Source of the DNA: Nevskia sp.
GTDB lineage: Bacteria > Pseudomonadota > Gammaproteobacteria > Nevskiales > Nevskiaceae
NCBI GenBank assembly: GCA_031291075.1
Contig: JARLJS010000235.1
Location: forward strand, 1 to 50,090
DNA: 50,090 nt
Reading direction: 5' to 3'
Part shown: positions 3,592-8,770 of the stretch, one piece after another
How positions within the stretch are numbered: position 1 is the first letter of the stretch
Layout: every line of letters starts with the position of its first letter
Translations under genes and position numbers: made by a program
The notes under the pieces: generated by a model
Told to the model about the DNA's origin: nothing
Seen by the model: the letters and a program-made list of their open reading frames with translations, nothing else
Databases searched by the model: none

Positions 3592-5964
3592 TCAATCCAG
3601 GTCGGTCGGCACCGCTTCCGCCGCGGCACGCCACAGCCGCGGGTGCTCCTCGCTCCAGTCGTGGGCGGCGCCGACGCCGTCGGCACCCACGTGCACGCTG
3701 ACGGCGCCGCCATTGCCCGTCATATGCGGTTCGGCGCCGGCCAGGAGATAGCGGGCCACCACCGGCGCGCGCGGGAAACGGAAGCGGTTGTGCCAGCCGG
3801 AAGGGAAAATCACCAGCAGCGGCTGGGCGGCGTCGACCAGGCCCTGGGTGGACGAGGTCTTGCTGCCGTGATGCGGCGCCAGCACCACGTCCGCCCTTAG
3901 CAGGCCGGGATCGCCGGCCAGCAGGCGCTTCTCGGCCGGCGCCTCGATGTCCGCCGGCAACAGCGCGGCGTGCCCGCCGCTGCTCACGCGCAGCACACAG
4001 CCGCCGTTGTTGCGCGACCAACGCTGCGAGTGCGGCGGATCGGCATCGCTCTGCGCCGGCGGATTGAGGATCTGGAAGGTCACGCCATCCCAGTCCCAGC
4101 GCTGGCCTTCCACGCAGGGCAGCGGCGACAGCGCGCCGATCTCGCGCAGCACCTGCAGCGAGCGCCGCACCGAGGGGGCGCCGCCGCGGTGGTCGAGATC
4201 CGCTTGTGACACGATCATCATGTCCAGCTCGCTCACGCCCTGGCCCAGCAGGAACGGCACCACCTCGGAACGGCCGGCGTCGGCCACGTCCTCGAAGGCC
4301 GGCCCGGTGTCGAACAGCAGCGTGTGGTGCGCGGTGCGGACCACCACCGACAGGCCCTGCCCGACGTCGAGCGCGGTGAGGTCGAAACCCTCGCGCGGCG
4401 CGCGGTCGAGCGGCAGGAACAAGGGCAGGAAACAAAGCGCGGCGAAACCACGCAACGGCACGCCGCGCGGCGCAAGCAGGAAAACCATGCCGAGCATGGC
4501 CAGCAGCAGCAAGGCCGGCTCCGGGCTGGCGGCGATCCAGGCCTGCGGCGCGTGCTCCGCCGCCCAGCCCAGGCCCTCGCGCACCCACAGGATGCCGTGC
4601 GCGACGAAGTGCAGCAGCGGCACGCCCGCCGCCGGCCAGGCCCAGCTCAGCAGCAGCGCCACCAGCAGCAGCGGCAGCAGCACGGTGAAGGCCGGCACCA
4701 CGGCCAGGTTGGCCAATGGCCCGAGCCAGCCGCCGCCCTGGAAGAAGTAGAAGGTGAGCGGCAGCAGCACCAGGCTCAGGGTGAGCTGCAGCAACAGCAG
4801 GGAGCGCAGGCCGTGCCGCGCCTGCAGCCGGCCGGACAGGACGTAGAGGATGGCGGCAACCGCCGTGAACGACAGCCACAGGCCGGGACTGAGCAGGGCG
4901 GTGGGACTGGCGGCGACGATCAGCAGCCAGGCCAACGCCAGGGCCCGGCCGACCTGGCTGGCACGGTCGGTCCACAGCGCGGCGAAACCGAACAGCAGCA
5001 TCAGCAGGGCGCGCTGCGCCGGCGGCTCGAAGCCGGACATCAGCGCGTAGACCACCGCCGCCAGCACCGCGCCCAGCATACCCGCCTTCTGCGCCGGCAG
5101 CCGCAGGCAGAGGGAGGGGAACAGCACCCACAGCCAGCGCAGCACGAAGTAGACGGCGGCCACCACCATGCCGATGTGCAGGCCGGCGATAGCCATGAGA
5201 TGACTGGTGCCGGTGACGCGGAAGGTGTCCCAGTCCGGCTCCCGCAGCAGCGCGCGGTCGCCCACCGCCAGGCCCGCCACCAGTCCCAGCGCGGGATCGC
5301 CCGGCAGCCAGTGCTCCAGCCGGTCGGCCACTGCCTGGCGTGCGCGCAGGAGCAGGTAACCGCCGCCGGCCGCGCAGGGCTCGGCCGCGCGCACGGTGGC
5401 GGTGGCGCCGATGCCCTGCTCGAACAGCCAGGCCTCGTAGTCGTAGCCGCTCGGGTTGAGCGAGCCGTGCGGCGCGCGCAGGCGCAGCCGGAGGCGCCAG
5501 CAATCGCCGCCGCGGACGGCCTGGTCGCTGCGGTACCAGGACACGCGAATCAGCGGCAGGCCAGCATCGTCCGGCGCGAACAGGAAGTGCAGATCGCGCT
5601 TCGGACCATCCGCCTCCGCCACATCGGACAGCTCGGCTTCCTCGTGCTGGCCGGGCGAGAGGCGTTTCTGCGGCAGCGAGGCGATGCGCCCCTGCACCGT
5701 CAACTCGCGGTCGCTGTCCGCCAGCGGCCAGCGCGTGTCGAGCAGGTGCTGCACGCGCAGCACCGTGAGCAGCGCGCCGAGCAGGGCCACGGCGTAGAGC
5801 CTGCGCCAGCGCCAGGGCAGCAGCGCCGGAACCGCCAGGGCCGCCAGCCAGGACAGCGGGGGCAAGGCCGGCAAGGCCAGCACGGCAAGGGCGCCGGCGG
5901 TGAACAGGAGGACGACGGGCAGCAGCCCGCCGTCAGAAGTCTCCGGCTCAGGCGGCCGGCGCAC
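3592..5964 (-). CDS. comEC: ComEC/Rec2 DNA-uptake channel protein
   Basis: This inner-membrane protein passes single-stranded DNA into the cytoplasm during natural transformation. The 790 residues hold an N-terminal helical pair and DUF4131 region (about 15-190), a polytopic Competence domain (about 205-470, with the typical [15 protein letters not shown]), and a C-terminal metallo-beta-lactamase domain (about 525-770) with LDVGQG near 530 and APHHGSK near 698. The metal motif usually written SHxDxDH reads SQADLDH near 586, so the first histidine is glutamine (codon CAA). Whether the domain still acts as a nuclease is open. The start overlaps lolD by 17 bases, and lolC-lolD-comEC order recurs in Xanthomonadales. 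No other competence gene is in the window. Confidence 0.93.
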
Positions 5965-6667
5965 TCGCGGCAGCGTCGTAGGGCCGCAGGCTGCCCCCTT
6001 CGAGCTGCCAGATGCGGTCCATGCGCGCCGCCAGGCGCAGGTCGTGGGTCACCACCACCAGGCTGGTGCCGAGCTCGCGGTTGAGCTCCAGCATCAGCTC
6101 GAACACCGATGACGCCGTGCGCATATCGAGGTTGCCGGTCGGTTCATCCGCGAGCACGCAGGCCGGCCGTGTCACCAGCGCGCGCGCGACGGCCGCACGC
6201 TGCCGCTCGCCGCCGGACAGCTCGCCCGGCTTGTGCTGCAGACGCTCGCCCAGGCCCACCCGCTTGAGCAATGCGGCGGCGGTGTCGAACGCCTGCTCGC
6301 GCGGCGTGCGCCGGATCAGCAGCGGCATCGCCACGTTCTCCAGCGCGGAGAACTCCGGCAGCAGGTGATGGAACTGGTAGACGAAGCCGAGCGCCTGGTT
6401 GCGCAACCTGCCGCGCGCGGCGTCGGACAGCTCGCTCATGCTGCGGCCAGCCACCCACACCTCGCCCGTGCTCGGCGCGTCGAGCCCGCCGAGGAGGTGT
6501 AGGAAGGTGCTCTTGCCGGCGCCGGAGGCCCCCACCACCGCCACGCGCTCGCCGCGGGACAGGGTGAAGTCGATGCTGGAGAAGACCTGCAGCCGCAGGC
6601 GGCCGTCGTCGAAGGTCTTGCCCAGGTTCTTGCAGGCCAGGACGTAGCCGTCGAGGGGGGTGGTCAT
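5948..6667 (-). CDS. lolD: Lipoprotein-releasing ABC transporter ATPase LolD
   Basis: The 239-residue ATPase powers release of lipoproteins from the inner membrane to LolA. Visible motifs are Walker [10 protein letters not shown] (46-54), Q-loop Gln98 in [18 protein letters not shown] (a LolD/MacB-type stretch), signature LSGGERQ (150-156), Walker B VLADEP (171-176) and H-loop His208. It overlaps comEC downstream by 17 bases. The partner permease (7523-8770) lies upstream on the same strand, separated by an unusual 0.85 kb repeat-filled gap. ATG at 6667 fits family length. Confidence 0.95.
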
Positions 6668-6691
6668 GGGCGGGTTCCCGTGCTCCGGGGG

Positions 6692-7499
6692 GCGCTTTGA
6701 AGCTTTGGTGCGTGCGCTTGCGCGCGTGCCGGGTTTTTCCCAGTTTGAAGCCGTGTATTCCGCCTGCGGCGGGTTCCTTTTCTTGTATCGACAAGAAAAG
6801 GAACCAAAAGAAACGACCCCGGAGCCTGCGCCCGTTCATCGCAAAAAGCGCGATGAACGGGTCCCCTGCGCTTCTCGCCCATGGCGGGTTCCGCACACAG
6901 GCCATCCATGGCCTGCGTGCGGAAGCTTCGGTATCCTGCCTCGCCCCGCGCGAACACACGCGCGGGCCTATATCGCCATGGGCTGCGATGCTCGGCGCAG
7001 GCAACGGGGGGGCACGTCAACAGCGAACAGCGAACAGCAACATCAAAAGCGCAACGCTCTACGATCCTGCCGGGTGCGGCGGTGTGAACGCTCGAAAACT
7101 GGATTCCCGCCTGCGCGGGAATGACGGGGTGGTTATTGTGTGCCGTTGCCGTTGCTTTGCTTTTGACGTTCATCCCCGTTGGCTGCGCCGAGCATCGCAG
7201 CCCGCGGCGATACAGGCTCGCGCCTGTTTGGCGCGAGGCGAGGCAGGATGCCGAAGCGTCCACCGTCAGGCCAGGGACGGCCTGTCGGTGGACCCCGCCG
7301 TGGGCGAGAAGCGCAGAGGACCCTCTCATCGCGCTTCTGCTTCTTGCGATGAGAGGGCGCAGCCGCCGGGTCGCCTTTCTTCTGGTTACTCTTCTTTGGC
7401 GACGCAAAGAAGAGTAACCCGCCGCAGGCGGAATACGCACTTTCAACTCCGGGAAAGCACTACACGCGCGCAAGCGCATGCAAGCAGGCTTCAAATCGC
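6692..7499. repeat. Large imperfect inverted repeat of two ~350-bp structured elements between lolC/E and lolD
   Basis: The 855-base gap 6668-7522 holds no credible gene. It is filled by two homologous copies in opposite orientation: left about 6692-7042, right about 7145-7499 (reverse complement). Within each copy there are four local hairpins at matching places. Left stems are 6772-6786/6791-6805, 6832-6842/6850-6860, 6889-6896/6917-6924 and 6945-6952/6959-6966. Right stems are 7384-7398/7405-7419, 7322-7332/7346-7356, 7258-7265/7286-7293 and 7217-7224/7230-7237. Where the copies differ inside stems, both sides change together (GGTTCCTTTTCTTGT versus GGTTACTCTTCTTTG, each with its perfect complement). 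Similar intergenic sequences are widespread in Xanthomonadales-type genomes as far as I know, but I cannot name a formal family. Long open frames crossing the region are by-products of base composition. Confidence 0.85.
7103..7122. repeat. dRS3/REP-like short palindrome in the centre of the large inverted repeat
   Basis: ATTCCCGC-CTGC-GCGGGAAT is a perfect 8-bp stem with a 4-base loop, followed by GACG. It matches the common 'ATTCCCGCxxxxGCGGGAAT' repeat known from many proteobacteria (dRS3-like in Neisseria). It sits in the spacer between the two arms of the 6692-7499 element. Confidence 0.7.
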
Positions 7500-7522
7500 A
7501 AAGCGCGCCAGCGATAGGCAAG

Positions 7523-8770
7523 CTACTCATACCGCAACGCCTCCGCCGGCTGCACCCGCGAAGCCCGCCAAGCCGGATACAGCGTCGACAACAACCCCAG
7601 CGACAACGACAGCACGCTGATCTTCACCACGTCCGACAGCTTCAGCTCCGACGGCAGGTCGCTGATGTAGTAGATGCTGGGATCCAGGAACTGGTGCCCG
7701 GTGGCCGCCTGCAGCAGCGGCACCAGGGTCTTGACGTTGAGCGCCAGCGTCACGCCCAGCACCACGCCGACGAAGGTGCCGACGAAGCCGATCACCGAGC
7801 CCTGCACCAGGAAAATGGTCATGATCGAACGCGGGGTGGAGCCGAGCGTACGCAGGATGGCGATGTCGGCCTGCTTTTCCTGCACCACCATCGACAGGGT
7901 GGAGACGATGTTGATCACCGCCACCAGCACGATCAGCGACAGGATCAGGAACATCACGGTCTTCTCGGTCGCCACCGCGCGGAAGAAATTGGCGTGCTGG
8001 CGGGTCCAGTCGCTGATGTAGACGAGCTGCGGCAGCTGCTGCGCGATCTGCCGCGCCACCATCGGCGCCTCGAACAGGTCGTGCAGCTTGAGGCGCACGC
8101 CGGTGACGCGGTCGCCCATGCGGTACAGCGTGGCGGCGTCCTGGATGTTGAGCAGCACCAGGCCGCGGTCGAACTCGTACATGCCGACCTGGAAGGTGCC
8201 GACCACGTTGAAGCGGCGGAAGCGCGGCAGCAGGCCGGCCGGGGTGGCGCTGACCAGCGGGATCATCAGGTCGATCTTGTCGCCGATCTCCACGCCTAGC
8301 TGCTGCGCCAGCTCCACCCCCAGCACGATGTTGAACTGCCCGGGCACCAGGTCTTCGAGCTTGCCGGACTTCATGTGCGCGCCGATCTCGGACACCTTCT
8401 GCTCCAGCACCGGGTCGATGCCGCGCAGCAGGGTGCCGGACAGATCCCCGCCCTCGCGCAGCATGGCCTCGCCCTCGACGTAGGGCGCGGTGGCCTCCAC
8501 CTTGGGGTTCTGCGCCGCCAGCTGGGCCAGTTCCTGCCAGTTCTCGATGCCCTCGCCGGGCTTGTAGATGACGGCGTGGGAGGCCATGCCGAGGATGCGG
8601 CTGCGCATCTCGCCCTCGAAGCCGTTCATCACCGACAGCACGGTGATGAGCGCAGTGACGCCGATGGCGATGCAGATGATCGCCACCGCGGTGATGAACG
8701 AGATGACGCGGTTGCTGCGCTTCGCGCGCGTGTACCGCAGGCCGGTGAACAGCTCGTAAGGAATGCGCAT
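7523..8770 (-). CDS. lolC: Lipoprotein-releasing system permease, LolC/LolE family
   Basis: The 415-residue inner-membrane protein is the permease of the Lol exporter. It has the expected layout: TM1 near residues 20-45 (VISFITAVAIICIAIGVTAL), a large periplasmic domain to about 265, then three TM segments (about 270-295, 315-345, 375-400). The C-terminus is YPAWRASRVQPAEALRYE, typical of LolC/E and MacB-type FtsX permeases. ATG at 8770 starts the family-typical MRIPYELFTGLRYTRAK. Only one permease is visible, so it could be LolC with LolE elsewhere, or a LolF-type homodimer. Its ATPase lolD follows only after the repeat element. Confidence 0.92.
   Translation of the reverse strand: MRIPYELFTGLRYTRAKRSNRVISFITAVAIICIAIGVTALITVLSVMNGFEGEMRSRILGMASHAVIYKPGEGIENWQELAQLAAQNPKVEATAPYVEGEAMLREGGDLSGTLLRGIDPVLEQKVSEIGAHMKSGKLEDLVPGQFNIVLGVELAQQLGVEIGDKIDLMIPLVSATPAGLLPRFRRFNVVGTFQVGMYEFDRGLVLLNIQDAATLYRMGDRVTGVRLKLHDLFEAPMVARQIAQQLPQLVYISDWTRQHANFFRAVATEKTVMFLILSLIVLVAVINIVSTLSMVVQEKQADIAILRTLGSTPRSIMTIFLVQGSVIGFVGTFVGVVLGVTLALNVKTLVPLLQAATGHQFLDPSIYYISDLPSELKLSDVVKISVLSLSLGLLSTLYPAWRASRVQPAEALRYE

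Follow-up and report, generated by a model that had tools for sequence, protein, structure and literature searches.

A dispersed inverted pair of co-varying structured arms between lolC and lolD of Nevskia sp.

The unit between lolC and lolD

The window analysed here, a stretch of 50,090 nucleotides from Nevskia sp., carries between the genes lolC and lolD an inverted repeat unit of about 810 bp, which is composed of two arms of about 345 nt each with about 120 nt between them. Both flanking genes are transcribed leftwards. The upstream operon gene, lolC, encodes a lolCE-type permease (7523..8770, minus strand; NCBIfam TIGR02212, 512.5 bits, cut-off 362.45), its start having been taken from the comparison of lolC-lolD loci, and the downstream operon gene is lolD (5948..6667, minus strand; NCBIfam TIGR02211, 326.3 bits, cut-off 307.75). 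The left arm (6692..7035) reads inward on the plus strand, with the minus strand as its outward, proposed RNA strand, and the right arm (7156..7499) reads inward on the minus strand and outward on the plus strand. R1, a covariance model covering the stem-F domain described below (built from 19 arms, 38 pairs), matches them at 6863-6999 and 7184-7319, respectively. A repeat search of the window aligned the inverted arms over the stretches 6692-6784/7407-7499 (77% identity), 6818-6849/7339-7370 (84%), 6846-6954/7228-7336 (83%) and 6956-7027/7156-7227 (85%). The two inverted copies of about 350 bp claimed by the first-pass annotation are thereby borne out and, being 77-85% alike by stretch, they are not the identical recent duplicates that it had considered as a contrary outcome. 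Long open reading frames (ORFs) cross the pair on both strands in the window's ORF list, but a coding role was set aside because the stems account for the letters. The spacer (7036..7155) contains a dRS3/CGTC-type palindrome at 7103-7126, ATTCCCGCC...GCGGGAATGACG; similar palindromes flank several units of genome G028, and records from Neisseria and elsewhere match this dRS3-like part.

The orthologous lolD locus was obtained from 15 genus genomes, namely that of the window (G000) and 14 relatives. The two genes are separated by at most 20 nt, or overlap, in nine of the 14, including the nearest two with an orthologous locus (G001 and G003), where the gap is -5 and the element is absent. The gap measures 108-123 nt in three relatives and about 495 nt, with other sequence inside, in two, whereas in G000 it spans 858 nt and holds the pair, which is found there in none of the 14 relatives. 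Since the pair is absent from the gaps of the relatives and present in G000 only, the unit was gained between lolC and lolD in the lineage of the window. The lolC-lolD comparison was too diverged to define the precise insertion site or a target duplication, and no clean empty site was found at two further genus loci compared; the lolD loci of other genomes (n=80, searched with a loose regular expression) yielded three chance-like matches and no convincing element. Three relatives (L230, L232 and L234, from G002, G013 and G010, respectively) carry another repeat-like insert of 108-123 nt, GTGAATCC...GGAGATTCAGCG, between the two genes, and the presence of a different insert marks this junction as an insertion hot spot.

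A common fold kept through compensated changes

Read inward from its outer edge, the left arm begins with two terminator-like, inward-facing hairpins on the plus strand: hairpin A (6704..6733), found by the terminator scan, and hairpin A' (6759..6773), a small G+C hairpin followed by a T-rich tract, with compensated pairs in its helix. These are followed by hairpin B (6772..6805, plus strand), whose pyrimidine 5' arm and purine 3' arm are 100% complementary (6772-6786/6791-6805) and show compensated pairs, and by a purine tail (6806..6813, plus strand), which is a mirror image of that 3' arm and a possible third triplex strand. Further in lie the 5' side of stem G (6817..6832, plus strand), an inverted repeat that pairs with 6994-7009 and keeps its outermost C-G pairs, and hairpin C (6831..6861, plus strand; 6831-6842/6850-6861, 100% complementary), which covaries. 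Stem F (6877..6983, minus strand; pairing 6877-6886/6974-6983) encloses hairpin D (6889..6924, minus strand; outward loop A-UGGA-U), a mini-hairpin with GGA in its outward loop (6930..6940, minus strand) and hairpin E (6945..6966, plus strand, read from the sequence). In the right arm, stem F pairs 7200-7209 with 7296-7305 around hairpin E (7217..7237, plus strand), the mini-hairpin GGC-AGGAT-GCC (7242..7252, plus strand) and hairpin D (7258..7293, plus strand; outward loop A-GGGA-C), hairpins E and D being again read from the sequence. Outside it lie, on the minus strand, hairpin C (7321..7357; 7321-7332/7346-7357, 100% complementary), the mirror-image purine tail (7376..7383), hairpin B (7384..7419; 7384-7398/7405-7419, 100% complementary) and the terminator-like, inward-facing hairpin A' (7418..7432; terminator scan). 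The outward consensus comprises, in this order, a C-rich start that pairs with a distal GGG, the conserved GCCGAGCATCGCAG, stem F, hairpin E, the mini-hairpin, hairpin D, the closing side of stem F, the conserved CGAGAAGCGCAGG, hairpin C, stem G, a pyrimidine tract and hairpins B and A'. An extra inner hairpin, GAACTGCTCAGGTCGGAACCGCTGCGCGGTTCCGACTAC, lengthens several pairs of the window's own genome at their inner ends (L028, 1935-1975 and 2640-2700; also L029, L030 and L032).

Each arm keeps this common fold through compensated changes. When the window arms are folded as RNA, whichever strand is used, their energies are 6.6-8.5 sd lower than those of their shuffled versions. Among 117 distinct arms, 91.1% of the cells are paired (67.1% in shuffles), 35 of the 38 pairs have two-sided changes (26.6 in shuffles), the cells with two-sided changes number 870 (257 in shuffles) and the covariation score is 0.450, compared with 0.119 in shuffles and at most 0.075 with partners slid; the count of further pair types, 86 against 80.6, is barely above the shuffles, 36 of 500 of which reach 86. 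Alignment A3 was fitted to the covariance model, a step that works in the model's favour; alignment A4 was not. RNAalifold, applied to 29 full arms, predicts 66 pairs, 51 of them with compensatory changes, and stem F also co-varies between genomes. The four hairpins (B, C, D and E) reported by the first-pass annotation in both arms are present as described, and its counts of changed pairs (four, two, four and two) are correct on comparing the printed letters. Its statement that every change is compensated stands for these four hairpins, though not for all differences between the two arms, as stem F has one A.C, in inward orientation, in the right arm of the window. The proposal made there that structure rather than sequence is selected agrees with the covariation found over many copies, by counting of pair changes rather than with R-scape, and selection very probably acts on single-strand structure.

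Wobble pairs are expected to be tolerated on the folding strand. When 29 arms are read outwards, G.U outnumbers A.C by 44 to 12 cells, or by 25 to 11 distinct column/type events (p=0.029), counts that are uncorrected for kinship. The same holds for stem F (35 G.U against 5 A.C, outward, in 87 arms, these being the best 111 of 150 rows after de-duplication) and for hairpin B (51 against 7, outward, in a set of 98 hairpin-B-like units that includes spurious ones), likewise uncorrected for kinship. Since the wobbles fall mainly on the outward strand, this strand is indicated as the one that folds, and selection likely acts on the strand that runs from the centre of the unit to its edges. Hairpins D and E are nearly pure Watson-Crick, with almost no wobble of either kind; such a scarcity of G.U is unusual for an RNA family and counts against an RNA reading.

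Spread and duplication of the pair

BLAST searches with the window element gave 27 matches in its own genome and matches in 28 of 61 relatives, a copy count that is low because seven contigs end within or beside the element. Model R1 has at least 18 matches in the same genome and matches at least 17 of 18 genus genomes and at least 32 of 100 relatives, with 30 arms or more in the richest genome (33 candidates at most being scored in each), and its matches reach two other families of the class (G093 and G098). Of 398 genomes sampled across the phylum, 12, from eight families of one class, contain a 31-base piece covering hairpin B and its tail with up to three mismatches, and the reversed control of this piece has zero matches in the 398 genomes. 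Judged by eye, the same layout occurs on a Variovorax chromid, and a reduced layout, with hairpin B and tail at each end, in Pasteurella multocida. Phage records match the window pair by the spacer palindrome only (one record) and 11 plasmid records, each covering less than 80%, by hairpin B or the spacer palindrome only; the window pair was therefore not taken to stem from a phage or plasmid, the record matches being limited to these parts. The Variovorax element matches 13 plasmid records, among which that of a Comamonas odontotermitis plasmid, with 41% of the element covered, looks like the same element.

The unit is multi-copy and, in G028, it was duplicated as an entire pair. Eleven G028 pairs align whole, spacer included, over about 830 columns with a mean identity of 88.5% (84-93%), and share the inverted ends GCTACTGCCTGTT...AACAGGCAGTAGC. 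The arms of one pair belong to different subtypes in G028, as they do in G002 and G013, and since pairs of such unlike arms align whole, the copied entity is the pair and not the arm. At G028 unit borders (L149, L150, L152, L218, L220 and L221), GTAGC marks the outer end and precedes a CGCGAAGCGCG hairpin, an arrangement that resembles a GTAG-type REP adjoining or sharing the unit border.

The unit is almost certainly dispersed and mobile-like, and is best described as belonging to a dispersed, non-coding, non-autonomous repeat family, BIME/MITE-like, of gamma- and betaproteobacteria. Like a MITE, it has terminal inverted repeats in G028. With REP/BIME/REPIN elements of the GTAG and CGTC families it shares an intergenic location, its nature as a many-copy inverted heterodimer that spreads as pairs (as set out in the available text of PMC3733652) and, at the outer border in G028 only, the GTAG; it differs from them in that their arms measure 20-40 nt and its own about 345 nt, and in that RAYT does not co-occur here. 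The RAYT-like gene suggested by the first-pass annotation as a companion is therefore not supported. PF01797 is unmatched in the R1-positive genomes G003, G017, G062 and G077, and it is present in many genomes from which the element is absent; as PF01797 does not follow the element, a RAYT/Y1 transposase was rejected as the general mover, the search for a parent transposase having covered Y1 transposases only. Additionally, the element may be likened, by description only, to the Haemophilus intergenic dyads, which according to the available part of PMC4144887 are thought to promote the mobility of gene loci; Pasteurella, a relative of Haemophilus, carries the reduced version of the window pair.

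Candidate functions and rival explanations

No description of the whole paired element was found in open-licence PMC literature, so that the earlier remark that it has no established name holds for the unit as such. It does not extend to the parts, as the core is related to TwoAYGGAY/RsmW, and hairpin B with its tail belongs to the potential intrastrand-triplex class. A CsrA/RsmA site is a hairpin whose loop contains GGA, and such hairpins usually come in twos; TwoAYGGAY is predicted to bind CsrA (PMC4333381, in part). In the window arms, hairpin D and the mini-hairpin under stem F show the TwoAYGGAY layout of two GGA-loop hairpins within one closing stem. GGA is present in the outward loop of hairpin D in 103 of 112 distinct arms, in that of the mini-hairpin in 103 and in both in 101, a sample reduced from 150 rows to 112 by removal of 13 antisense, partial or truncated rows and then of duplicates. 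The GGA loops are kept while their closing pairs vary (C-G, A-U or G-C), whereas the loop of hairpin E takes 42 different forms in the same arms.

According to the Rfam searches, no family reaches its threshold in the window, including TwoAYGGAY (RF01731, gathering 43 bits). Related arms at nine of 11 loci tested, and at L163, do pass the gathering score of this family, always on the outward strand; the passes correspond to eight distinct places, as two loci repeat the place of another, in G002, G005, G009, G013 and G016, and the score was missed at L207 and L213. The best-scoring, sub-threshold member of its clan in the window is RsmW (RF02809), with 34.7 bits (E=0.00068, below the gathering score of 52) on the outward strand of the right arm (7176..7298, plus strand) and a weak resemblance, also below gathering (E=0.098), on that of the left arm (6884-6971, minus strand). 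RsmW similarity below gathering recurs on the outward strand at L028, L030, L031, L042 and L159, the best score being 40.2 bits (L031), and the CsrA-binding clan is unmatched at E<=1 in L029, L032, L150 and L202, and at E<=0.1 in L167, L168, L199, L200, L201, L209 and L210. With TwoAYGGAY the element shares a closing stem around a pair of hairpins whose loops read (A)NGGA(U), but here this domain lies within an arm of about 345 nt that also holds stem G, hairpins C, B and E and the triplex-type tail, and the arms form inverted pairs in many copies per genome, features that go unmentioned in the available portions of PMC2864571 and PMC4333381. The CsrA-titrating small RNAs of the RsmW type (Rfam clan CL00106) share with it the GGA loops and the weak, repeated outward-strand similarity, and differ in that the element is sub-threshold and a dispersed repeat, with no sigma-70-like promoter found in 6600-7600. 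In Xanthomonas, an RsmA-binding RNA, RsmU, can be cut from a 3' UTR, according to the available part of PMC7694677. CsrA is matched in 29 of 32 element carriers, against 53 of 68 other genomes; the three carriers in which it is unmatched (G010, G016 and G022) have genomes that are 79-91% complete, and G016 keeps the GGA loops though it has no CsrA match. The chances that GGA-type arms bind CsrA/RsmA, as predicted from their loops, appear evenly balanced. A variant in G030 and in part of the G038 arms has a GTTTGAG-type hairpin in place of the GGA hairpins, and the Variovorax and Pasteurella elements are without the GGA domain, from which it follows that CsrA binding is not the purpose of the whole family.

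The purine tract behind hairpin B mirrors the purine arm of the hairpin, and arm and tract change together across genomes. The mirror is perfect in 20 of 27 distinct combinations of purine arm and tail, and in 14 of the 19 asymmetric combinations, in which mirror and self-symmetry are separable. In another set, of 38 combinations, 20 are perfect, and shuffling of the tails gives at most 12. That the purine arm is repeated directly rather than as a mirror was ruled out at fixed register, where direct registers explain at most five of the 19; when the register is chosen freely, direct repetition and mirror account for about equal shares of the letters (0.87 and 0.81). This is the layout of intrastrand triplexes, which exist in a purine and a pyrimidine motif, only the latter being allowed in RNA (PMC4666352, in part). 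Hairpin B and its tail constitute the purine motif when read inward and the pyrimidine motif when read outward, so that the outward strand is indicated once more. The PIT elements (BoxC/TM_ECO; ITxF) have the same order of pyrimidine arm, loop, purine arm, turn and mirror purine tract (class II, or class IV on the other strand), and TM_ECO occurs likewise as inverted pairs of two types, and also in unstable loci, as far as the available text of PMC4666352 goes; hairpin B differs from them in being A/G-mixed, without the CCCTCNCCC/GGGNGAGGG motif, and in forming a single helix within a large fold that is conserved. For another triplex motif, footprinting in vivo revealed no stable triplex (PMC4666352, same portion), and it is doubtful that hairpin B and its tail, although predicted to do so, form one in the cell. 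The Variovorax element has a TM_ECO/BoxC-type motif nested within its spacer, and similar motifs are present in G030 (L201, 1199-1310; spacer of L168). G014 and G016 (L235 and L236) also have inverted pairs of TM_ECO/BoxC-like motifs between lolC and lolD, around a possibly DUF559-like ORF. Different triplex-type repeats seem to share sites.

Several other explanations have to be weighed against a regulatory RNA. The unit could be a DNA-level element whose fold serves as a single-stranded or cruciform substrate of a recombinase (HUH, tyrosine or other, as in REPIN/IS200-like systems), the RNA being incidental. Whole-pair copying, the inverted ends, the GTAG/CTAC at the G028 border and the position of some copies beside the REP-like hairpin point in this direction, as does the near-pure Watson-Crick pairing of hairpins D and E, which a two-stranded cruciform needs; moreover, inverted heterodimers are normal for REPs (PMC3733652, in part) and the triplex motif works as DNA too (PMC4666352, in part). 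However, Y1/RAYT does not follow the element, no target-site duplication is seen in the alignment of the 11 G028 pairs, and both the wobble bias of the outward strand and a loop conservation that fits an RNA-binding protein are left unexplained, which makes this explanation rather unlikely. At the level of sequence, the arms might instead be handles for homologous recombination and horizontal transfer around cassettes, in the manner of an integron-like cargo holder. Three pairs of the window's own genome (L028, L029 and L030) enclose 0.8-1.4 kb with ORFs, the lolC-lolD gaps of relatives contain different inserts, and attC-like letters were noticed, by eye only, near the cargo ORFs of L029 and L030. 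The pair may thus be a landing place for gene cassettes, but most of the 34 inverted pairs with both arms scored (pairs with less than 600 nt of flank left out) enclose just 78-240 nt and no gene; one of them, L209, with 2,028 nt and a long ORF between the arms, probably represents two separate elements. Five cargo ORFs (L028 2080-2625; L029 2236-2613 and 2697-3203; L030 2688-3191; L032 322-1533) have zero Pfam matches, and a role as cargo holder is improbable.

The unit may also be a bidirectional terminator and stabiliser of mRNA 3' ends, which would end convergent transcripts and block 3' exonucleases through its folds. Seven terminator-like sites, against 1.2 expected, fall in 6600-7600, with inward-facing ones at both outer edges, and around the 34 pairs (longest-ORF rule, raw counts) the neighbouring ORFs are convergent in 17 cases and divergent in one. 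Codirectional ORFs account for the remaining 16, the lolC-lolD operon included; moreover, a tolerated selfish insert would show convergent placement too, and termination needs no two co-varying arms of 345 nt with conserved unpaired motifs. While the predicted bidirectional terminator activity is as open to acceptance as to doubt, that it explains the unit is possible but on the whole not to be expected. Finally, the stems could be kept perfect by template switching (quasipalindrome correction) without any selection, as the excess of two-sided changes (870 cells) over one-sided G.U steps (about 30 cells) and the few alleles of the hairpins, mixing between copies within genus g1, would suggest. 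Such a mutational artefact accounts neither for conserved loops with varying closing pairs and conserved unpaired motifs nor for stem F, whose two sides lie far apart, or the mirror relation among three strands, and is highly improbable.

The reading towards which we lean is that of a non-autonomous dispersed repeat at gene 3' ends, whose outward strand is proposed from the sequence to hold a CsrA-type RNA domain and a triplex hairpin. As RNA, the outward strand would fold into a junction domain with two GGA-loop hairpins able to bind a CsrA/RsmA dimer, and hairpin B would be joined by the neighbouring pyrimidine tract in a triple helix of U.A-U and C.G-C triples. Because the arms are inverted, a read-through transcript from either neighbour would contain one arm, and only one, in the orientation that folds; the orientation of the unit would hence be irrelevant, one arm folding in the crossing transcript either way. 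The inward-facing, terminator-like hairpins at both edges would end or weaken transcription from both sides, and the unit, tolerated at the 3' ends of genes, would spread and add CsrA/RsmA sites to adjacent RNAs. A bolder and quite unlikely version, likewise drawn from sequence, is that of an orientation-proof mobile regulatory RNA, which would bring one CsrA/RsmA-binding and triplex-capped domain, correctly oriented, into every transcript crossing the unit, and each insertion of which would add a Csr/Rsm sponge tied to the expression of the neighbouring gene.

The proposed repeat would link TwoAYGGAY, an orphan candidate RNA, with the orphan intrastrand-triplex motifs and with inverted heterodimeric repeats, subjects that the literature consulted handles separately. 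It also provides many natural triplex candidates that co-vary, in which three strands change together, and makes the relevance of triplexes in bacteria testable. Should the arms bind CsrA/RsmA, changes in how many copies of a mobile repeat a genome has could re-tune a global regulator, and differences between close relatives would be readable from the genome.
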